Assembly (NCBI GenBank): GCA_020860565.1
Contig: JAJBUA010000010.1
Location: 1 to 53,702, forward strand
Length of the DNA stretch: 53,702 bases
Reading direction: 5' to 3'
Source: Clostridiales bacterium
GTDB lineage: Bacteria > Bacillota > Clostridia > Lachnospirales > Lachnospiraceae
The position numbers and the translations under genes are program-made. Under the pieces are notes generated by a model. It saw only the letters and a list, made by a program, of their open reading frames with translations. It had not been told where the DNA came from and searched no databases. Each line of letters starts with the position of its first letter. Position 1 is the stretch's first letter. Positions 17,259 to 28,416 of the stretch are shown here, piece by piece.

Positions 17259-17429
17259 AGTAATATTTCTCCCATTATTTGATTGTCCCAGTCATTGTAC
17301 GCTTTTTTGGAGAAAATTGTAATAACTGAAAGGCGGGGAGATTATGCCTTGCGAAATCCTGACCGGGATGGTACAATTCATAAATCATACCGGAAAAGTC
17401 GGTAATCAATATGAATGAGGAGGGAGACA

Positions 17430-18416
17430 ATGAGGGTAACATTGGAAGAAACATTGCGTCGGAATGGGCTTATGGTCATTGATGGCTCCATGTCTACAGC
17501 GTTGGAAAGGCTGGGTGCGAATCTGAATTCCCGCCTTTGGACCGCCAAAGCGCTCGCTGAGACGCCGGATCTGGTGAAACAGGTTCATCTGGATTATTTC
17601 CGGGCAGGAGCTGACTGCGGCATCACATGCAGCTATCAGGCCACGATTCCCGGATTGACGGAAAACGGATACACCAGGGATGAGGCAAAGTAGCTGATTG
17701 CAAAGAGTGTTTCGATCTTTTTAGAAGCGAGGGACGAGTGGTGGGAAGCTGAAGGCAGCCAGTCCGGTCGCAGTTATCCGCTGTGTCTGGCCGGGATCGG
17801 ACCTTATGGCGCTTATCTGGCGGACGGTTCCGAATATCGCGGAAGATATGGCATTGATCAAGCCGAGTTAAGGGCATTTCATCAGGAGCGAATGGAGATT
17901 CTGTGGAACGCCGGGGCGGATATTCTGTTGATTGAAACGCAGCCTTCCCTGCAGGAAGCGCTTATCGAAGCTGAGATCGCTGAGGAGATGGGCGCTGACT
18001 ATTGGATCAGTTTTTCCTGTTGTGACGGCAGACATATCAATGAGGGCGACCGGATTCGTGACTGTGCGAAGACTTTGTCGGCTGATCATCCGCATCTGAA
18101 AATGATCGGAGTCAACTGCACGAAACCGGAATATATTGAAGAACTGATTAGGGAGCTGAAGCGGGGAACGACACTTCCTGTTGCGGTATATCCTAACAGC
18201 GGCGAGGAATATGATCCGATCACAAAAACCTGGCATGGCCAGGGCGACTCGAAAAGCTTTGGCGAATATGCGTTGGATTATTATCGCTGCGGCGCGGACG
18301 CCGTGGGCGGCTGCTGCACGACGGTAGATGAGCATGTGAGACAGGTTGTTTCGGCAAGAAATCAGTACTTAAAAGAAAAAAAGAATGTGAGGATAAAGTA
18401 TGCAGGCCTTAACTGA
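17430..18416 (+). pseudogene. mmuM: Homocysteine S-methyltransferase gene with in-frame TAG
   Basis: The reading matches MmuM-type homocysteine S-methyltransferases, which make methionine from S-methylmethionine or a similar donor. Present are MVIDGSMSTALERLGA near the start, and the zinc cysteines in GVNCTKPEY and VGGCCTT. The frame is continuous except for one TAG at 17692-17694, where Glu, Lys or Gln is expected in the helix TRDEAK-x-LIAKSV. Upstream there are 87 codons, downstream 240. AGGAGGG precedes the ATG at 17430. The stop may be a nonsense mutation, a sequencing error or a readthrough site. The AGCS gene overlaps its end and was probably coupled to it. Confidence 0.8.
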
Positions 18417-19896: not shown

Positions 19897-19926
19897 TTGA
19901 CAATTATACAATGGGTGTGTTATGAT
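19897..19926 (+). promoter_or_regulatory. Probable promoter of the DUF3842 gene
   Basis: TTGACA at 19897-19902 and TATGAT at 19921-19926, 18-bp spacer. The predicted start falls at 19933-19934, on the A of the ATG, implying a leaderless or nearly leaderless message. A weaker alternative is TTGTTA (19881) with TATACA (19905). Confidence 0.5.
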
Positions 19927-19933
19927 CTTAACT

Positions 19934-20353
19934 ATGAATATTTTAGTCATCGACGGACAGGGCGGCGGATGCGGAAAGCAGATCATCTCTGCCATTAAAA
20001 AAGATAAAACAATACAGGGAACGATCATGGCTGTGGGAACGAACAGCACAGCGACTGCCGCGATGGCAAAGGCGGGAGCAGATCGGATCGCGACCGGAAC
20101 GAATCCGATCGTAGTCTGCTCGGCAAGAGCAGATGTGATCATCGGGCCGATCGGGATTGTGATAGCGAACTCGATGCTGGGTGAGATTACTGCGGAGGCT
20201 GCCGCGGCGGTTGCGAACAGTTCTGCGGTACGGTTGCTTCTTCCGATGAATCAGTGTGACAATATTGTCATCGGTGTGCAGGACGCCTCGCTGAAAGTGA
20301 CGATACCGGCGCTTATGGAGGCGCTGCATCGGTTGTGCGTTCAGGATTGCTGA
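19934..20353 (+). CDS. DUF3842 family protein
   Basis: A 139-residue protein with a nucleotide-binding-like start NILVIDGQGGGCGKQ and the conserved segments AVGTNSTATAAM, ADVIIGPIGIVIANSMLGEIT and LLLPMNQCDN, which I recognise as DUF3842. The biochemical function is unknown. I start at 19934 because the family begins M-x-ILVIDGQGG. The ATG at 19922 overlaps the predicted -10 box, though GGGTG lies 4 nt upstream of it. It precedes the leader RNA and transporter operon, and linkage with metal-related genes is consistent with this neighbourhood. Confidence 0.8.
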   Translation: MNILVIDGQGGGCGKQIISAIKKDKTIQGTIMAVGTNSTATAAMAKAGADRIATGTNPIVVCSARADVIIGPIGIVIANSMLGEITAEAAAAVANSSAVRLLLPMNQCDNIVIGVQDASLKVTIPALMEALHRLCVQDC

Positions 20354-20564
20354 CGATTGATCAACCAGAAAAGGATCGAAAACCATCAGGAAGATGGCGG
20401 AGTGGCTCAGAAGAGCAAGGTTATTGTCGAAGGCTCCAGAGGATTCCGGTTGCCTGGAATCTTATTATTGACTCAACTGGGCTAAAGTATAATTTAAAAG
20501 TGAAGCGCTATTACCACGAAGGTAATTTTCCTCTTTTGAAGGGAGGAGAATTATCTTCTTTTTT
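20354..20564 (+). promoter_or_regulatory. Leader RNA copy A upstream of the transporter operon
   Basis: Contains hairpin 1, CCATC-AGGAA-GATGG (20383-20397), a 7-nt linker, hairpin 2, GCTC-AGAA-GAGC (20405-20416), about 100 nt of variable sequence with a GATTCC/GGAATC stem, and an intrinsic terminator whose first 23 nt (20518-20540) are identical to leader B. Flanking AACC (about 20381) and GGTT could close a junction around both hairpins. The layout is that of a transcription-attenuating riboswitch or protein-bound leader. I cannot assign it to a known class. No good promoter was found inside, so it may be read from the DUF3842 promoter. Confidence 0.65.
20518..20564 (+). terminator. Intrinsic terminator of leader A
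   Basis: GAAGGTAATTTTCCTC pairs with the segment ending GAATTATCTTC (20558), followed by TTTTTT. It stands before the methyltransferase gene, so transcription of the operon must pass it. Confidence 0.75.
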
Positions 20565-20628
20565 GCGTCCGAGGCGGGTATCAAAAATAGTATTTAAACC
20601 TATAAGTAAAATCAATAGGAGAAAAGAA

Positions 20629-21345
20629 ATGGAAGAGATTAAAAAACAGATCACAGATTACTGGGCCAGACGCACGCCGTCGTTTTGTGTGCAGAAGATG
20701 AGAGAGTTGTCAGGAGATAAGCATTTCCTGTGGCTGGAGGAGTTTGGCAAATATCTGCCAGAGGGGAAACGGTTGAAAATCCTGGATATTGGTACGGGAA
20801 CCGGTTTTTTTGTCTTTCTGCTGGCAAAGCTCGGACATGAGATGACGGGGATTGATCTGACGGAGAAGATGATCCGGGAAGCGAAGGAAACAGCAGAATT
20901 GATGGGAATATCTGCAGGGTTTGAAGTTATGGACGCGGAGGAGCCATCCTTTGCTCCAGGCACGTTTGATGCGATTGTCACGCGGAATCTGACATGGGGA
21001 TTGCCGCATCTGGGGCGGGCTTATCGGAGATGGCATGCTTTGCTGAAGCCGGAAGGGATTCTGATCAATTTTGACGCGGACTACTGCAGGGAGAAGCGGA
21101 ATATTGAGCTGCCGGCAAATCACGCCCATAAAGAGATCGGAGCAGATATGATGCAGAAATATGAGGAAATCAAGGAAGCGTTGCGTCCGTGTCAGCGGCC
21201 CAGGCCGGAGTGGGATGTGGAATTGCTAAAAGATGCCGGATTTCGTGAGATCCATGTGGATACTGATGTGTGGGAACGCATTTATCATGATAAGGATGAG
21301 TTTTATAACCCGACGCCCATTTTCGCAATTACGGCAAAAGCATAG
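20629..21345 (+). CDS. Class I SAM-dependent methyltransferase
   Basis: A 238-residue enzyme of the UbiE/Methyltransf_11 type. Motif I is ILDIGTGTGFFVFLLAKLG (about residues 50-68), the acidic residue after strand 2 is in GIDLTEKM, and motif FDAIVTRNLTWGL follows. The start has TAGGAGAAAAG upstream. It is the first gene after leader A and lies 10 bp before the permease gene, so it is part of the transporter operon. The substrate is unknown. Modification of a metal-binding molecule would fit the context but is a guess. Confidence 0.85.
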   Translation: MEEIKKQITDYWARRTPSFCVQKMRELSGDKHFLWLEEFGKYLPEGKRLKILDIGTGTGFFVFLLAKLGHEMTGIDLTEKMIREAKETAELMGISAGFEVMDAEEPSFAPGTFDAIVTRNLTWGLPHLGRAYRRWHALLKPEGILINFDADYCREKRNIELPANHAHKEIGADMMQKYEEIKEALRPCQRPRPEWDVELLKDAGFREIHVDTDVWERIYHDKDEFYNPTPIFAITAKA

Positions 21346-21355
21346 GAGGAAGGTA

Positions 21356-22300
21356 ATGGGATCATACGTGTGTAAACGGCTGCTGCAGCTTATACCGATT
21401 CTTCTGGTTATTACTTTTTTATCATTTGGTATGATGCGGATCGCGGGAAGCGACGCGGTGCTGCAGAAGATGGAGAATACGGGCATGGTATTGTCGCAGG
21501 ATGTGATTGATCAGGCGAGGACAGAACTGGGACTGGACCGCCCATTTCTGGTTCAGTATCTGACATGGTTGTGGGATCTGCTTCACGGTGATATGGGAAC
21601 CAGTTACATATCAGGGAAAGAGGTGTTCCCGACGTTTGTTTCCAAACTTCCGGCAACGTTGCTGCTGACAGTGATCTCCATCGGGCTGACGATTGTGATT
21701 TCTATTCCGCTGGGAGTTGTAGCTGCAGTGAAACAGAACCGATTTACGGATTATCTGATCCGGTTTTGCAGCTTTCTTGGAAACAGCATGCCAAACTTTT
21801 TTGTAGCACTGCTTCTGATGTATGTTCTGGCGATTCGTCTGCATGTGCTGCCGGTGATCTCGAACGGCGTTAACGGGAGGAGTGTGGCGATGCCGGCGCT
21901 GACACTCGCGATCGCCATGTCCGCGAAATATCTGAGGCAGGTACGGGCAACGGTATTGGATGAACTGAACAGGGAGTATGTGACGGGGGCAAAGGCGAGA
22001 GGTGTACGGTTTTCCGCCACGCTGATAAAGAGCGTCCTGCGGACGTCGATGGTTACGATATTTACATTGCTTACGTTGTCTATCGGCAGTCTGCTGGGCG
22101 GCACGGCCATTGTGGAATCAATTTTTCTCTGGGATGGCGTGGGAAAGCTGGCGGTCGACGCGATTAATATGCGGGATTATCCGATGATTCAGGCATATGT
22201 GATGTGGATGGCGATAATCTATGTCGTGGTTAATCTGGTTACCGATCTTTCTTACCGTTTGCTGGATCCGAGGATACGTCTGGGAGGGATGGAGGCATGA
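21356..22300 (+). CDS. nikB: Nickel/peptide-type ABC permease, NikB-like
   Basis: A 314-residue DppB/OppB/NikB-type permease. It has an N-terminal membrane segment (LLQLIPILLVITFLSF), the conserved LGLDRPFLVQYLTWL, five further membrane segments and the ATPase-coupling EAA loop around YVTGAKARGVRF (near residue 200). The end DLSYRLLDPRIRLG is typical. AGGAGGAAGGTAATG gives the start. The next permease gene overlaps by 4 bp (ATGA). Nickel as substrate is inferred from larC and the shared leader; peptides remain possible. Confidence 0.85.
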   Translation: MGSYVCKRLLQLIPILLVITFLSFGMMRIAGSDAVLQKMENTGMVLSQDVIDQARTELGLDRPFLVQYLTWLWDLLHGDMGTSYISGKEVFPTFVSKLPATLLLTVISIGLTIVISIPLGVVAAVKQNRFTDYLIRFCSFLGNSMPNFFVALLLMYVLAIRLHVLPVISNGVNGRSVAMPALTLAIAMSAKYLRQVRATVLDELNREYVTGAKARGVRFSATLIKSVLRTSMVTIFTLLTLSIGSLLGGTAIVESIFLWDGVGKLAVDAINMRDYPMIQAYVMWMAIIYVVVNLVTDLSYRLLDPRIRLGGMEA

Positions 22301-23160
22301 AAGAAGAGAAAATGATTCCGGTGCGCAGGCCGAAGATCAGGAAAAATCACATTCGGTTCAGACTTGCTTTTTTTGTGGTGATTGCTGTGATACTGATGTT
22401 TGCTGTAATATTTGCGGAATATCTGTGCCCTTATGATCCAAATGTGCAGGACTACAGTGTTTCTCTGCAGGCGCCGAATCTGCTGCATCCCGCAGGTACA
22501 GATTCCTATGGCAGGGATATGTTGTCACGGATTTTGATGGGGCTGCATACCAGCGTCCTTGCGACTCTCGCATTGGTCGTGATCATTACGCTGACAGGAA
22601 CGACAATTGGCGTTATCTGTGGATATTGGGGAGGCTTCATGGATGCGTTGGTTATGCGGATTTCCGATATATTTCTGGCCTTTCCCGGACTGGTATTTGC
22701 GCTGGCGATTGCAGCGATCCTCAATGGCGGTTTGTCCAATGCGGTGATTGCGCTGGCTGTAATCAGCTGGCCGAAATATGCCAGGATCGCGAGAAGCCAG
22801 ACTCTGGCACAGAAAAGCATGCCATATATCTGGGCAGCGAGATTGTCCGGGGATACGGCGGGACAGATTATCTTCCGGCATATTCTGCCAAACAGTGTGG
22901 GCCCGATCCTGGTGACAGCCATGCTGGATATTGGTACGATGATGATGGAGCTGGTGGGGCTTTCTTATCTTGGCCTGGGAGCGCAGCCGCCGACAGCAGA
23001 GCTTGGCAATATGATGAGCGGCGGGCGCAGTATGCTGCAGACGTATCCGTGGGTGGTGATCGGCCCGGGCGTCGCCATCTTTGTGGCAGTGGTCATTTTT
23101 AATCTGCTGGGGGATACCGCTCGGGATTATCTGGATCCGCGAAATATGGAAAAATGCTAA
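22297..23160 (+). CDS. nikC: Nickel/peptide-type ABC permease, NikC-like
   Basis: A 287-residue DppC/OppC/NikC-type permease. It has an N-terminal membrane segment, the periplasmic LHPAGTDSYGRDMLSRIL that is the family hallmark, and the EAA loop around YIWAARLSGDTAGQIIFRHILPN, with the end DTARDYLDPR. It overlaps the previous gene by 4 bp. It pairs with the NikB-like protein as the membrane channel. Confidence 0.87.
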   Translation: MKEEKMIPVRRPKIRKNHIRFRLAFFVVIAVILMFAVIFAEYLCPYDPNVQDYSVSLQAPNLLHPAGTDSYGRDMLSRILMGLHTSVLATLALVVIITLTGTTIGVICGYWGGFMDALVMRISDIFLAFPGLVFALAIAAILNGGLSNAVIALAVISWPKYARIARSQTLAQKSMPYIWAARLSGDTAGQIIFRHILPNSVGPILVTAMLDIGTMMMELVGLSYLGLGAQPPTAELGNMMSGGRSMLQTYPWVVIGPGVAIFVAVVIFNLLGDTARDYLDPRNMEKC

Positions 23161-23240
23161 GGAGATTTTGTATGGACAAAGGTAAATTTTTCATTAATCG
23201 TTTATGTCAATTTGGAAAAAGCAGAGGAAGGGAGATTGGT

Positions 23241-24827
23241 ATGAGAAGAATAAAAGAAAGCATTCTGCTTATGTTGGTGTTGTGTATGGGATTTGGGAGT
23301 CTTTCCGGGTGCTCCGGGAATGTTGGCGGCGCGGAAAGTGCCGGGAATGAAGCCGCGGAAGCAGAAGCGTCGAAAACGTTTATATTTGGCGATACAACCT
23401 TTAATCCGGAGAATGAGGAACCAGATGTGAATCCGCATCGCGCTTATTCTGGTTGGGCGTGTATCCGCTATGGGATCGGGGAGACTTTGTTTCATTATTC
23501 GGACTCCATGGAGATGGAGCCATGGCTGGCGGTTGGCTATGAAAATCCAGATGAGCGGACCTGGGTGATTACTCTGCGCGATGGTGTTACTTTTTCAAGT
23601 GGGAGAAAGATGGACGGAGAGGCAGTGAAAGAGTGTCTGGAGCATCTGATCGAGACACATGACCGGGCCAGAGGTGATCTGAGTATTGAGAGCATTGAGG
23701 CGGATGGACAGGTCATTACGATTACAACGTCTGAGCCCAAACCTGCTTTTTTAAATTATCTGTCAGATCCTTATGGATGTATCATCGATATGCAGGCGGG
23801 GATTACGGATGATGGAATCGTTGCCGGTACCGGGCCTTATATTGCCATATCTCTGGTGTCCGGCGAGCGTCTGGAACTGGTAAAAAATGAGGATTACTGG
23901 GATGGTACGCCGGGATATGATTCGATCACCGTGCGCACGATTTCCGACGGGGATACTTTGACTCTGGCGTTGCAGTCCGGCGAGATTGACGGAGCTTACG
24001 GACTTCCTTATGCCAGCTATGCAATTTTCCAAAATGAGGATTACCATATCTCGAGCTGCGCGACGAGTCGTGCCTTTTTCCTGGAGATGAATGCCAAAAG
24101 TGCGGTGATCGCAGATGACGCGGTACGGCAGGCGATTGCCATGGGGATTGACAAAGATGGGTTTGTCAATACGCTTCTGCAGGGCAACGGTTATGCCGCC
24201 GTGGGTATCTATCCGGACAGCTTTTCTTTTGGCGGAGACGCTGTAAAAGCGGAGAAGTATGATCCGGACGGAGCGAAGGCAATTCTGGACGCTGCCGGAT
24301 GGCTCGACCGTGACGGTGATGGATATCGGGAGAAGGATGGCACGAAACTGTCGATTCGCTGGCTGACTTATCCCAGCAGGCAGGAGCTTCCTCTGCTGGC
24401 GGAGTCCGCGCAGGCCACATTAAAAGAGATTGGCATAGAGGTCGCGATCAACTCTACCGCAGACCATAACAGCCTGCGCGTGGATCCGGCGGCCTGGGAC
24501 GTCTATGTCAGCGCCATGGTAACGGCGCCAACCGGGGATCCGGAGTATTTCTTCACGACACATTGTCTGGACTCCTCGTCCGCAAACAATGGTTCTTATC
24601 ATAGCGACGAGCTGGAATCGCTGGCGGCAGAGATGGCGGCGACGTTTGACGTCAGCCAACGGGCGGAGCTGGCGGTGCAGATGCAGCAGGTCATTCTGGA
24701 TGATCATGCCTTTGTATTTTGTTCTCATCTGAAAATGAGCATGGTGAGCCGGGCTTCGGCGTCCGGGCTGACCGCGCATCCCTGTGATTTTTATGAGATC
24801 ACGGCAGATCTGGCGCCGGTAAGTTGA
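23241..24827 (+). CDS. nikA: Nickel/peptide-type substrate-binding lipoprotein, NikA-like
   Basis: A 528-residue SBP_bac_5 protein. I start at 23241 because AGGAAGGGAG lies 6 nt upstream and the first 25 residues are a lipoprotein signal (MRRIKESILLML, lipobox LSGC), so the mature protein is anchored to the membrane surface. Conserved family segments include NPHRAYSGWACIRYGIGETL, TWVITLRDGVTFSSG and AVRQAIAMGIDKDGF. It delivers the ligand to the two permeases. Ligand identity is inferred only from context. Confidence 0.85.
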   Translation: MRRIKESILLMLVLCMGFGSLSGCSGNVGGAESAGNEAAEAEASKTFIFGDTTFNPENEEPDVNPHRAYSGWACIRYGIGETLFHYSDSMEMEPWLAVGYENPDERTWVITLRDGVTFSSGRKMDGEAVKECLEHLIETHDRARGDLSIESIEADGQVITITTSEPKPAFLNYLSDPYGCIIDMQAGITDDGIVAGTGPYIAISLVSGERLELVKNEDYWDGTPGYDSITVRTISDGDTLTLALQSGEIDGAYGLPYASYAIFQNEDYHISSCATSRAFFLEMNAKSAVIADDAVRQAIAMGIDKDGFVNTLLQGNGYAAVGIYPDSFSFGGDAVKAEKYDPDGAKAILDAAGWLDRDGDGYREKDGTKLSIRWLTYPSRQELPLLAESAQATLKEIGIEVAINSTADHNSLRVDPAAWDVYVSAMVTAPTGDPEYFFTTHCLDSSSANNGSYHSDELESLAAEMAATFDVSQRAELAVQMQQVILDDHAFVFCSHLKMSMVSRASASGLTAHPCDFYEITADLAPVS

Positions 24828-24839
24828 GGATAGTTGAGT

Positions 24840-25622
24840 ATGGATGCGTTATTACAATATGAATCAGTAGAGATTTCTTTTGGGGAGCGGGCTGTCATCC
24901 ATGATGTGAATTTTTCTCTGCACCCATCAGAGATTCTTGGTGTCGTGGGAGAATCGGGAAGCGGGAAAAGTACGCTTTTAAGAGCGGCGCTGGGGATTCT
25001 GGGTGAAAATGGTGTAGTGACCAGGGGAAATCTGATCTATCAGGGAAAAAATATCCCGGATCTGAGTGAGAGAGCGATGCGAAAGATTCGCGGGCCGGAG
25101 ATTGGCATGATTTTTCAGAACGCAGAAGGTTCTCTTTGTCCGGTTCGTACCATTGGAGATCAGATTTATGAAAGTATGGTCTCACATATGCGTATTTCGC
25201 GGGCGCAGGCCAGAGAGAAGGCGCTGAATCTTTTTGAAAAACTGAAATTCAGGGATGGAGAGCGGCTCTGGAGAAGTTACCCGTTTGAAATATCCGGCGG
25301 CATGAACCAGCGTGTCGGCATTGCGATTGCCATGTTGATGGAGCCATCTGTCCTGCTGGCGGATGAGCCGACCAGTGCGCTGGACGTTGCAATTCAGCGG
25401 CAGGTTGTCTGTGAACTGCTTCAGATGCGGGAACTGTTTGGCACGGCGATCATTCTGGTGACGCACGATATTGGCGTAGTATCTGCCATGGCGGATACGA
25501 TTCTGGTATTAAAAGATGGAAAAATGATGGAATATGGCGAGGCGAAGAGTGTACTGCAAAACCCGCAAAACGCATATACCAGGCGGCTGTTATCCGCAGT
25601 TCCAAGACTGAGGAGGGCGTAA
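24840..25622 (+). CDS. nikD: Nickel/peptide-type ABC ATPase, NikD-like
   Basis: A 260-residue ATPase with Walker A GESGSGKST (about residues 40-48), a signature reading ISGGMNQR, Walker B LLADEPTSALDV and the H-loop VTHDIG. The end NPQNAYTRRLLSAVP is the oligopeptide/nickel-transporter tail. The ATG at 24840 has GAGGA about 10 nt upstream. Its stop abuts the start of the second ATPase gene. Confidence 0.88.
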   Translation: MDALLQYESVEISFGERAVIHDVNFSLHPSEILGVVGESGSGKSTLLRAALGILGENGVVTRGNLIYQGKNIPDLSERAMRKIRGPEIGMIFQNAEGSLCPVRTIGDQIYESMVSHMRISRAQAREKALNLFEKLKFRDGERLWRSYPFEISGGMNQRVGIAIAMLMEPSVLLADEPTSALDVAIQRQVVCELLQMRELFGTAIILVTHDIGVVSAMADTILVLKDGKMMEYGEAKSVLQNPQNAYTRRLLSAVPRLRRA

Positions 25623-26381
25623 ATGGAGACAATATTGGAAGTGAAGGATCTGAGTGTGACTTTTCGGACAGAGGGAAAGCCGCCTTTTACCGCACTGGAT
25701 CAGATATGCCTGTCTCTGCACAGCGGTGAAACGCTGGGAGTCGTAGGGGAATCGGGCAGCGGGAAAAGCACATTGGCAAAGGCGGTTACCCGGCTGCTTG
25801 ATCCGACGGAAGGAACGGTCAGTCTGTTCGGGGAGGATATTACGCATGTCCGGGGATCTGCGCTGCGCCGTATCTATCGTGATATTCAGATGGTATTTCA
25901 GAATCCGATGAGTTCTTTTGATCCGCGCAGGACACTGGGAGACGGGATCGGAGAAAGTCTCCGCAACCGTGGTCTGCCGAAGGCTGAGATTGAGAAAAGA
26001 GTGTCTGGTCTCCTGCGGCAGTGCGAACTGTCGGAAGAATTCGCAAAGCGGTATTCTCATGAAGTGAGCGGAGGGCAGTGTCAGCGGACCGCAATCGCCA
26101 GGGCGCTGGCGGCAGAGCCGAAGATTCTGATCTGCGACGAAGCGACATCCGCGCTGGATGTGACGGTACAGCAGGAGATCATGGAACTGTTAAAACGATT
26201 AAAGCAGGAAAAGGGTTTGTCCTGCCTGTTTATCAGCCATAACCTCGCCCTGGTGCAGTCCTTCTGCGACCGGCTGGTGGTTATGCGCGAGGGGAGGATT
26301 GTGGAGGAAGGGACGGTAGATGAGGTGATCGGGAATCCCCGGTCGGAATATACGAAATTATTAATCGAGTGCGTGTTATGA
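25623..26381 (+). CDS. nikE: Nickel/peptide-type ABC ATPase, NikE-like
   Basis: A 252-residue partner ATPase with Walker A GESGSGKST near residue 40, MVFQNPMSSFDPRRTL as Q-loop region, signature VSGGQCQRTAIARAL, Walker B LICDEATSALDV and H-loop ISHNLA. Walker B has EAT in place of the commoner EPT, which also occurs elsewhere in the family. It starts immediately after the NikD-like gene and ends the transporter operon. Confidence 0.88.
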   Translation: METILEVKDLSVTFRTEGKPPFTALDQICLSLHSGETLGVVGESGSGKSTLAKAVTRLLDPTEGTVSLFGEDITHVRGSALRRIYRDIQMVFQNPMSSFDPRRTLGDGIGESLRNRGLPKAEIEKRVSGLLRQCELSEEFAKRYSHEVSGGQCQRTAIARALAAEPKILICDEATSALDVTVQQEIMELLKRLKQEKGLSCLFISHNLALVQSFCDRLVVMREGRIVEEGTVDEVIGNPRSEYTKLLIECVL

Positions 26382-26383
26382 TT

Positions 26384-26618
26384 TGGCGGAGAACATACTT
26401 TTGTGGCCTGTTTAGCCGTCATTGGCATGATAATCCGGCATGGCAGATAAGGCTGCGGGAGCGCCGCCGCGTTTATGATAACCGGTCCGGCGACAAAGAT
26501 CACCAATCTCGGCGCAGTAAAAATCGTGCTGGGAACGAGGCGGTTTCTGATGTATCTTGCGTTTGTTGCTGCGTTCGCGCTGGTTACGGTGATGACTGTA
26601 AATGTGTTTTTGACATAA
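26384..26618 (+). pseudogene. C-terminal remnant of a YraQ/DUF318-type permease
   Basis: One frame reads GGEHTFVACLAVIGMIIRHGR, then a TAA, then GCGSAAAFMITGPATKITNLG and a final membrane segment ending at the TAA near 26618. This looks like the tail of a predicted heavy-metal-related permease (DUF318/YraQ family, from memory). The start is absent and the frame carries an internal stop. Confidence 0.55.
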
Positions 26619-26688
26619 AGAGCCATCAGAAATCAAAAAACAAATATAATTTTTTAGATCGGGTTAACATCGGAGAAAAAGAATATCT

Positions 26689-26718
26689 TTGACAGATTGG
26701 TGGCAGGCGTGCTATTAT
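26689..26718 (+). promoter_or_regulatory. Promoter of the larC leader
   Basis: TTGACA at 26689-26694 and TATTAT at 26713-26718, 18-bp spacer. Predicted start near 26725. Confidence 0.7.
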
Positions 26719-26724
26719 GAGACA

Positions 26725-26904
26725 TATCTGGTAAAATCCCTGGAACAGGATAGACGAATCATCAGGAAGATGATTATTGGCTCAGAAGAGCAGTGGTTTT
26801 GTATTTGCGGATGAATGATAAATATTGAAATAAGGTTTTTAGAGTTGCCGTGAAGGTAATTTTCCTCTTTTGAAAAGAGAGAGATTATTTTCACGGCCTT
26901 TTTT
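26725..26904 (+). promoter_or_regulatory. Leader RNA copy B upstream of larC
   Basis: Hairpin 1 is AATCATC-AGGAA-GATGATT (26757-26775); its core ATCAGGAAGATG is identical to leader A. Hairpin 2 is GGCTCAGAAGAGCA (26779-26792), also identical. About 60 nt later comes the shared 23-nt terminator start (26852-26874). The stems differ in sequence but stay paired, while the loops AGGAA and AGAA are unchanged, as expected of a conserved RNA fold. Confidence 0.7.
26847..26904 (+). terminator. Intrinsic terminator of leader B
   Basis: GCCGTGAA (from 26847) pairs with TTCACGGC (ending 26897), with a long inner helix, followed by a T run. It lies between the larC promoter and larC. Confidence 0.8.
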
Positions 26905-26949: not shown

Positions 26950-28416
26950 ATGAAAAAGAAAAATCAGTTATATTTAGAATGTTACACCGGTATCAGCGGA
27001 GATATGACCGTGGCGGCGCTTCTGGATCTGGGTGCAGATGAGCGGACACTGAGGGAATCTCTTGCCAGCCTGCCGGTTGACGGATTTGAAATAAAGATCA
27101 GCCGGGTTAAGAAGTCAGGCCTGGACGCTTGCGATTTCAACGTGATTCTTGACCATGTGCATGAAAATCATGATCATGATATGGAATATCTGCACGGGGC
27201 ATCCCAACATCATGAGGGTGACCATCACCATGAAGATGACCATCATCACGAGGGCGATCATTACCATGAGGACGACCATCATCATAATATTGCAGCGGAG
27301 AGTAATCCTGGCTGTGAGGAAATCCACAGCCATCACCATGACGAGTCTCACAGCCATAACCACAGTCACGCCCATCATCATGAGCATCGGGGAATGCGTG
27401 AGATCCGCGAGATTATCGGGCAGTCTGCGATCTCTGACCATGCAAAGGAAATCGCACTCCGGATTTTTGAAATTCTGGGGGAAGCAGAGGCGAAGGCTCA
27501 TGGGGAAACGTTGGAAACCGTACATTTTCACGAGGTTGGTGCGGTCGATTCGATTGTAGATATTGTGGCCGCGGCGGTTTGCCTGGATAATCTGGGGATC
27601 GACGAGGTGATTGTGCCGTTTCTCTGCGAGGGCGGCGGGACGATCCGCTGCGCACATGGGATCCTGCCGGTACCGGTCCCTGCAGTGGCAAATATTGTGG
27701 CGGCGCATGGCCTGAAGCTTTGCTTGACTGGTGAGGAGGCAGAGTATGTGACTCCAACCGGTGCCGCGATTGCAGCAGCGGTACGGACATCGGATCGCCT
27801 GCCAGAAGAGTTTACGGTAGAGCGAATTGGTCTGGGAGCGGGAAAGCGGAATTATCAGCGGCCGGGATTGCTGCGGGCAATGCTGATTCAGGAAGTTTCA
27901 GGCGAAACAGATGACAGTAACGACAATGATAACAAGGGTAACGCTGTGATTTGGAAACTGGAGAGCAATATCGATGACACAAACGGAGAGAATTTTGGCT
28001 ATGTGATGGAGAAGCTTCTGGAAGCCGGTGCGAGAGATGTGTTTTATAGTCCGGTTTATATGAAGAAGAACCGGCCGGCGTATATGCTGAGTGTCCTTTG
28101 CATGGAAAAAGACATCGAGGTTATGGAACATATTATCTTCCGTGAGACGACGACGATCGGGATCCGGCGGTGCCGGATGGAGCGGACAGTTCTTGATCGG
28201 CGGATTGAGACGGTACAGACGCCGCTTGGCGAAGCGACGGTTAAAATTTGCAAGTTGCCTCGGGCGCAATCTGACCTGGCAGGGGAATCGGAAATAAAAG
28301 AAGAAGTACGCTGCTATCCGGAATATGAGAGTGTTGTGCAGTTGTGCAGGGAGTGTGGCAGATCTTACCGGGAAGTGTATGATATCGTGTGTCAGACATA
28401 TCGGGATAAAAATTAA
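26950..28416 (+). CDS. larC: LarC, nickel insertion protein for the nickel-pincer cofactor
   Basis: A 488-residue protein of the LarC family, which installs nickel into the pyridinium bis-thiocarboxylate mononucleotide to give the nickel-pincer cofactor. It opens with LYLECYTGISGDM. Residues about 68-150 form a His/Asp/Glu-rich insertion with about 30 histidines, probably a nickel store. The segments TVHFHEVGAVDSIVD and YVTPTGAAI follow. The C-terminal domain (from about residue 330, ESNIDDTNGE) is in the same frame, unlike the L. plantarum gene, where larC1 and larC2 are joined by frameshifting. The gene has GGAGG before the ATG. No larA, larB or larE lies in the window. Confidence 0.9.
   Translation: MKKKNQLYLECYTGISGDMTVAALLDLGADERTLRESLASLPVDGFEIKISRVKKSGLDACDFNVILDHVHENHDHDMEYLHGASQHHEGDHHHEDDHHHEGDHYHEDDHHHNIAAESNPGCEEIHSHHHDESHSHNHSHAHHHEHRGMREIREIIGQSAISDHAKEIALRIFEILGEAEAKAHGETLETVHFHEVGAVDSIVDIVAAAVCLDNLGIDEVIVPFLCEGGGTIRCAHGILPVPVPAVANIVAAHGLKLCLTGEEAEYVTPTGAAIAAAVRTSDRLPEEFTVERIGLGAGKRNYQRPGLLRAMLIQEVSGETDDSNDNDNKGNAVIWKLESNIDDTNGENFGYVMEKLLEAGARDVFYSPVYMKKNRPAYMLSVLCMEKDIEVMEHIIFRETTTIGIRRCRMERTVLDRRIETVQTPLGEATVKICKLPRAQSDLAGESEIKEEVRCYPEYESVVQLCRECGRSYREVYDIVCQTYRDKN

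Follow-up and report, generated by a model that had tools for sequence, protein, structure and literature searches.

A shared leader with paired NGAA-loop hairpins, very probably a transcription attenuator, precedes nickel-uptake and nickel-pincer cofactor genes in a Clostridiales bacterium and its relatives

The window analysed here is the whole 53,702-nt stretch of contig JAJBUA010000010.1 from a Clostridiales bacterium of the Lachnospiraceae (assembly GCA_020860565.1, positions 1 to 53,702). It carries two copies of a leader, one in front of an ABC importer operon (nik leader) and one in front of larC (larC leader). The leaders and the genes described here lie on the forward strand. The nik leader directly follows a DUF3842 gene (PF12953; frame starting at 19922 or 19934 and ending at 20353), whose product has a predicted Rossmann-like fold. 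It is followed by a class I methyltransferase gene (20629-21345), the first of the operon, and by nikB, nikC, nikA, nikD and nikE-like importer genes (21356-26381) assigned with NCBIfam. A nickel-named NCBIfam model gives the best match for four of the five importer proteins and an OppF model for the fifth. All of these matches fall below the curated cut-offs, and at this level nickel is the presumed substrate. The larC gene (26950-28416) encodes the nickel insertion protein of the nickel-pincer cofactor pathway and matches both LarC domain models above cut-off. These gene matches agree with the initial annotation, which had placed one leader before an ABC importer with a methyltransferase and the other before larC.

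The two leaders share ATCAGGAAGATG (20385-20396 in the nik leader and 26761-26772 in the larC leader), a linker of 7 and 6 nt respectively, GGCTCAGAAGAGCA (20404-20417 and 26779-26792) and, further downstream, 23 identical nt, GAAGGTAATTTTCCTCTTTTGAA (20518-20540 and 26852-26874). All these elements, together with the different extensions of the first stem (CC/GG against AATC/GATT), had been described in the initial annotation and were recovered here. The combined pattern occurs twice in the window against 0.00 expected (100 shuffles), and a looser version has just 2 copies in the whole assembly (2.8 Mb, 95% complete). The predicted fold of both leaders shows a 5-nt and a 4-nt loop. The first hairpin, P1, is CCATC-AGGAA-GATGG in the nik leader (20383-20397) and AATCATC-AGGAA-GATGATT in the larC leader (26757-26775), while the second, P2, is GCTC-AGAA-GAGC in both (20405-20416 and 26780-26791); these assignments are based on the fold and on the module alignment described below. 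A window scan for pairs of NGAA-loop hairpins closed by C-G and spaced by 14-26 nt returned only the two P1-P2 pairs on the forward strand and none on the reverse strand.

A second pair of hairpins, P3 and P4, is located downstream. In the nik leader, P3 is ATTACC-ACGAA-GGTAAT (20510-20526) and P4 is TTCCTCTT-TTGAA-GGGAGGAG (20528-20548); in the larC leader they are GAGTTGCC-GTGAA-GGTAATTT (26842-26862) and CTCTT-TTGAA-AAGAG (26865-26879). Their loops are 20 nt apart in both copies and GAAGGTAATTTTCCTCTTTTGAA spans the sequence from the loop of P3 to that of P4. The 23 fixed nt are therefore explained by P3-P4 being a second dual module. They also form part of the 5' arm of an intrinsic terminator in both copies, as had been proposed. 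The nik terminator covers 20518-20564 (stem 20518-20558 followed by a T tract) and the larC terminator 26847-26904 (stem 26847-26897 and T tract). Their folds reach -26.3 kcal/mol (z -4.35) and -28.3 kcal/mol (z -6.20) relative to shuffles. A simple terminator scan picked the former and missed the latter, which was seen by folding. P3 of the nik leader and its terminator are mutually exclusive, and P4 forms the terminator top.

Promoter-like sequences with 11 of the 12 consensus positions are found before DUF3842 (TTGACA-18-TATGAT, 19897-19926; 3 sites found against 1.0 expected in shuffles) and before the larC leader (TTGACA-18-TATTAT, 26689-26718; 1 site found against 1.1 expected). Sites of this quality also arise about once per shuffle. 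The larC leader has a promoter-like site of its own. The nik leader is probably an intercistronic attenuator with no visible transcript start of its own, since the DUF3842 stop codon directly precedes it and the promoter-like site lies before DUF3842.

A larC match is present in 20 of the 24 genus genomes. Strong leader matches are restricted to three species, the window's own genome (G000), G257 and G256, where they precede nik and larC. In G256, one leader is located between DUF3842 and larC-larB-larE. The conserved terminator stretch occurs at 8 places in the 24 genomes. Six are the leaders of these three species; the seventh (G258) lies directly after DUF3842 and before larB-larE, and the eighth (G260) carries two mismatches. 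No NGAA hairpin pair was identified upstream of the own-genome gene for the S-component of an energy-coupling factor (ECF) transporter, of the larC gene of G255, or in 16 other larC upstream regions of the genus. In several of these pairless regions a coding frame, taken for larB, reaches up to larC. An exact-sequence search detected the leader in 3 of 250 genomes, the own genome included. A first narrow model gave strong rows in three species only and a weak row in G271 (E 0.004) that later proved real, and a second recovered the own leaders and one chance match in 397 genomes. The two LarA-family loci of the own genome gave no match to the R2 model at E 1.

More divergent copies also exist. 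A weak model match in G252 corresponds to a rebuilt copy before larE, two methyltransferase genes and nikBCADE, with stems CAGC/GCTG and TGATGC/GCATTG around the loops AGGAA and AGAA. This copy and a loop-plus-stem rule opened the wider leader set. The rule selected 9 distinct stretches in 659,446 collected bases. Its exact form (loops AGGAA and AGAA, stems of at least 4 pairs) gave 8 distinct matches in the collected loci, none in 40 Mb of order-1 random sequence and none for 7 permuted loop pairs. A wider pair rule identified 21 distinct pairs in 992,565 collected bases, 17 of them in such leaders; the four others (L042, L060, L131:4965 and L194) lie elsewhere. A family model built from 12 modules returned 14 rows at E <=3.4e-6 in 40 chosen genomes. 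They represent 13 distinct leaders, 12 of which are the model's own sequences and one of which (G295) is new. At E <=0.005 this model has a match in 56 of 397 genomes. Lar, nik or ECF-S leaders account for 14 of its 16 best rows (5 in the model, 9 not), while the other two fall in a coding stretch (G097) and upstream of a response regulator (G225).

Ten of the 25 loci read from the family search are lar or nickel-uptake leaders. The 15 others have a coding frame or fewer than two NGAA hairpins at the site; two of these (L226 and L230) end at contig edges and were therefore read off the right place. Several other candidates were discarded: L080, which lies inside a coding frame and to which L085 is nearly identical, L087 (G404), which is antisense to a gene start, L173-L185, which were read at the site, and G252:C124:178726, where a single hairpin is present. 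The pair scan, the only analysis to cover L198 and L201-L205, listed no hairpin pair there.

The accepted leaders precede larB (G070), larE-larB with or without larC-nik (G372, G351, G035 and G374), larE (G065, where the contig ends after the first codons), nikA-like operons (G305, G019 and G396) and cbiM-cbiQ (G075). The G372 leader heads larE-larB-larC-nikABCDE. In G269, larB-larE-larC, methyltransferase genes and nik form one run, accompanied by a partial and relaxed version of the leader. The model search in relatives suggested at the outset revealed recurrence before lar and nickel-uptake genes in independent genera, and these contexts give good support to a nickel and nickel-pincer cofactor regulon as predicted from sequence.

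The leader also precedes an ECF transporter S-component gene followed by a kinase-like gene in G262 and G271, both of which are among the four members of the genus that lack a larC match. ECF-S protein matches occur in 64 of 348 family genomes. Of 30 ECF-S upstream regions, 8 hold at least two NGAA hairpins (L132, L133, L134, L136, L137, L139, L141 and L151) and 22 hold fewer, although L143, L147 and L158 among the latter are cut and may be read off the mark. The ECF-S leaders of G048 and G198 each carry two full dual modules, and those of G337 and G114 have AUGAA, GUGAA or UGAA loops. The kinase-like protein encoded after the S-component (PF12822, weak folT-family match) has an additional N-terminal region; such gene pairs are located at L131:3564-5239, L207:4242-5882, L208:2965-4695 and L199:3593-5378. 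The own genome also has ECF-S and kinase genes, without such a leader (L162:2564-5275); the genes that follow are presumably cyclodeaminase-like and folD-like.

Taken together, the predicted full leader is composed of four small (N)NGAA-loop hairpins that form two dual modules; within each, the loops are separated by about 20 nt (18-22 nt for P1-P2 and 17-21 nt for P3-P4). C-G closed loops in 25 leaders are AGAA (32), AGGAA (30), TGAA (5), ACGAA (3), GTGAA (2), ATGAA (2) and GCGAA (1), counts that rest on a rule looking only for 4-5 nt NGAA-type loops. In an alignment of 23 dual modules from 20 leaders and 17 genomes, 94.3% of the cells are paired and 84 show double changes, values that none of 500 shuffles reaches. 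In slid controls of the same alignment, pairing does not exceed 54% and double-change cells number 6 to 13; an earlier set of 12 modules had given 29 such cells. Double changes affect 8 of the 10 stem pairs, a count reached by 221 of 500 shuffles. The terminator arms also covary (8 double-change cells; 1 of 500 shuffles). Covariation in homologues, whose absence would have counted against a leader RNA, is thus present, and stems rebuilt with other bases around conserved loops agree with the initial proposal of a constraint at the RNA level. In 19 of 24 leaders, the script detected a terminator overlapping the P3-type hairpin and incompatible with it, and a P4 that passes the hairpin rule stays within the terminator fold. 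Predicted from these features and from the gene contexts, the leader is very probably a transcription attenuator of a regulon for nickel uptake and nickel-pincer cofactor synthesis.

Several observations weigh against this model or restrict it. The rule finds both dual modules in only 14 of the 25 leaders: only P3-P4 is present in G258 and only the 3' module in G305 and G262, and the P4 loops deviate in G351, G035, G019, G119 and G065. In 5 of 24 leaders (larC of G000, G252, G070, G351 and G035) the script returned either no terminator or a different stem; a separate fold reveals the terminator of the G000 larC leader, and the G351 sequence suggests one. P3 in seven own-type copies changes one-sidedly only (A-U to G-U). 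Moreover, the choice of modules partly depended on stems and C-G closed loops being present, which tends to raise the pairing counts; the control for this stem-based selection is the zero rate in random sequence. Finally, the trans-acting factor invoked below is hypothetical.

The scanned leaders do not match a class present in Rfam 15 at gathering score. The single match in the window is a tRNA, away from both leaders. Searched at E up to 10, the two leaders have as best match a microRNA model (E 0.0075), whose 24.3 bits are far short of its gathering score, 92. Sixteen distinct leader loci, a set to which L199, L207, L244, L245 and L247 do not belong, gave two tRNAs and one thiamine pyrophosphate (TPP) riboswitch, none at a leader. 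The NiCo, cobalamin, Moco, yybP-ykoY and mini-ykkC models had no gathering-score match at the scanned leaders, in line with the first impression that the sequence lies outside the NiCo (czcD), cobalamin, Moco and yybP consensus. The NiCo (czcD) riboswitch is a Ni2+/Co2+ RNA that controls transcription, with sites before efflux genes; its architecture differs from that of the leader, and it has no match in the window leaders or in the 16 loci. The guanidine-II (mini-ykkC) riboswitch also consists of two small hairpins with constant loops. However, those loops are ACGR tetraloops rather than AGGAA and AGAA, the genes are different and no Rfam match was obtained.

The terminators reach -20 to -31 kcal/mol where rightly found, and an unassisted leader is therefore expected to terminate. 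In the proposed mechanism, the terminator would win by default and the genes would be off. P3 uses a terminator arm and would be incompatible with the terminator, of which P4 would form the top. A trans-acting factor recognising the paired NGAA-loop hairpins would hold P3, together with P4, and block the terminator, and RNA polymerase would then enter the nik or lar genes. P1-P2, the 5' module, is predicted to be free and would provide a second binding site. Hairpins, covariation, terminator overlap and gene contexts are read from the sequence; we infer the existence and nature of the factor, the signal it senses and the sense of the switch (bound being on). Readthrough by a factor-held P3-P4 is a possibility that the modelled structure allows. 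The whole scheme, with a trans-acting factor recognising NGAA-loop pairs and switching the genes on, has about even chances of being correct, and the odds that control is exerted by a protein are likewise balanced. A dimeric RNA-binding protein reporting the need for nickel or cofactor is the more likely factor, compared with free nickel bound by the RNA. A role of P2 as general antiterminator partner was rejected. Pairing between UCAGAAGAG of P2 and CUCUUUUGA of the terminator is possible, and it appears in folds of the G000 and G256 nik leaders cut before the terminator 3' arm. However, P2 stems vary freely elsewhere and G258 has the same terminator without P2.

The first alternative is a riboswitch, in which the RNA itself would bind Ni2+, the nickel-pincer nucleotide or one of its precursors (for example the nickel-free dithio mononucleotide) through two tandem two-hairpin aptamers, binding then stabilising P3 and causing antitermination. 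Loops nearly invariant over many genera with variable stems, tandem modules, lar and nickel-uptake contexts and strong terminators are all consistent with this, and a nickel-free precursor accumulating at nickel shortage would account for uptake and larC both being switched on. However, conservation is limited to loops and closing pairs, with no larger core seen, and the leader is also found before the ECF S-component and kinase. Plain nickel binding fits poorly because homeostasis would require the opposite of a bound-on switch before a nickel importer; better candidates are a protein or a ligand whose level increases under nickel or cofactor shortage. A riboswitch is a credible but less likely explanation. 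The simplest reading offered initially was an attenuator sensing nickel or a nickel cofactor. Its shared leader and the attenuation are upheld, as is, from the gene contexts, the nickel/nickel-pincer regulon, while direct sensing by the RNA is tentative: dual hairpins with near-constant loops resemble a protein target more than a single aptamer, the predicted default state is off and the leader also precedes ECF-S/kinase genes.

The second alternative is a divergent target of an ANTAR antiterminator. As described in PMC3369931 and PMC7496416, EutV and NasR targets consist of tandem small hairpins with C:G closing pairs and overlap a terminator. ANTAR target loops are hexanucleotides with A1 and G4. 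The leader shares the tandem small hairpins, the near-constant loops and the terminator overlap. The C-G closing pair is present in 23 of 23 modules, having been demanded by the search rule for most; U-A or U-G closing pairs are found in P4 of own-type leaders and in P3 of G252, G070 and G269. However, the loops in the 25 leaders (AGAA, AGGAA and RYGAA) are 4-5 nt long and have G at the third-last position, the leader often has two dual modules and it is associated with lar and nickel genes. It would work by an ANTAR-like layout while being set apart from ANTAR targets by its predicted loop size, and a true ANTAR target is improbable. A third possibility, that an intercistronic region carrying an ordinary terminator was recently duplicated and has no regulatory function, is very improbable. 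The leader pairs of the window and of the two nearest species are similar enough for this, but covariation already contradicts it, with stems rebuilt across genera while the loops stay fixed, as do the repeated occurrence upstream of lar and nik genes and terminator exclusion in 19 of 24 leaders.

DUF3842 is a candidate regulator or pathway enzyme. The gene is directly upstream of the leader and on the same strand in G000, G257, G256, G258, G198, G295, G065, G337 and G114. In G351 and G374 it is also upstream, at a distance of about 3 kb, and in G262, G173, G362 and G194 it is convergent and follows ECF-S or the kinase. Copies beside leaders or ECF-S/kinase genes include L209:3047-3472, L172:919-1347, L139:2294-2725 and L151:2299-2712. 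It is absent from the stretches examined around the leaders of G252, G271, G070, G305, G019 and G396 and from those examined for G075, G372, G035, G048, G119 and the lar-nik contig of G269. In the genus, 22 of 24 genomes carry DUF3842, and neither of the two that lack it (G255 and G172) has a leader match; G255 has larC without a leader. Since DUF3842 is a common gene, co-occurrence is a weak sign and adjacency a stronger one. LarB starts from nicotinic acid adenine dinucleotide (NaAD) and nicotinate nucleotides occur in the nickel-pincer pathway, according to PMC11796402. A broader and rather unlikely proposal is that the leader belongs to a new RNA class reporting nickel-pincer status, with DUF3842 as a pyridine-nucleotide or cofactor sensor acting on it and ECF-S and the kinase serving salvage of the cofactor or of a nucleoside precursor.

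Among the matches listed from the open-licence literature, no paper names DUF3842, and the titles and abstract openings describe neither the leader nor an RNA-mediated matching of nickel uptake to nickel-pincer nucleotide synthesis. Such coupling at the RNA level is possibly undescribed. The leader class may define a new riboswitch class or a new RNA-binding regulator. A leader common to nik, lar and ECF operons raises a question that reporters can address, and suggests a pathway for DUF3842 and the ECF-S/kinase pair.

Other features were observed at these loci. In G256, an apparent DUF3842 start runs straight into the nik leader (L068:11268-11400, reverse strand), probably a remnant of a lost gene, and the intact DUF3842 precedes the larC leader. 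Genes resembling 2-hydroxyglutaryl-CoA dehydratase lie between DUF3842 and the leader in G351, with similar frames in G374 (L244:1046-4011 and L246:1987-4934). Two tandem methyltransferase genes separate the lar genes from nikBCADE in G252 and G269 (L119:8108-9716 and L118:11632-13217). In the window itself, matches to homocysteine S-methyltransferase at 17415-18416 are split over two frames (17415-17693 and 17892-18416), and the gene looks disrupted.

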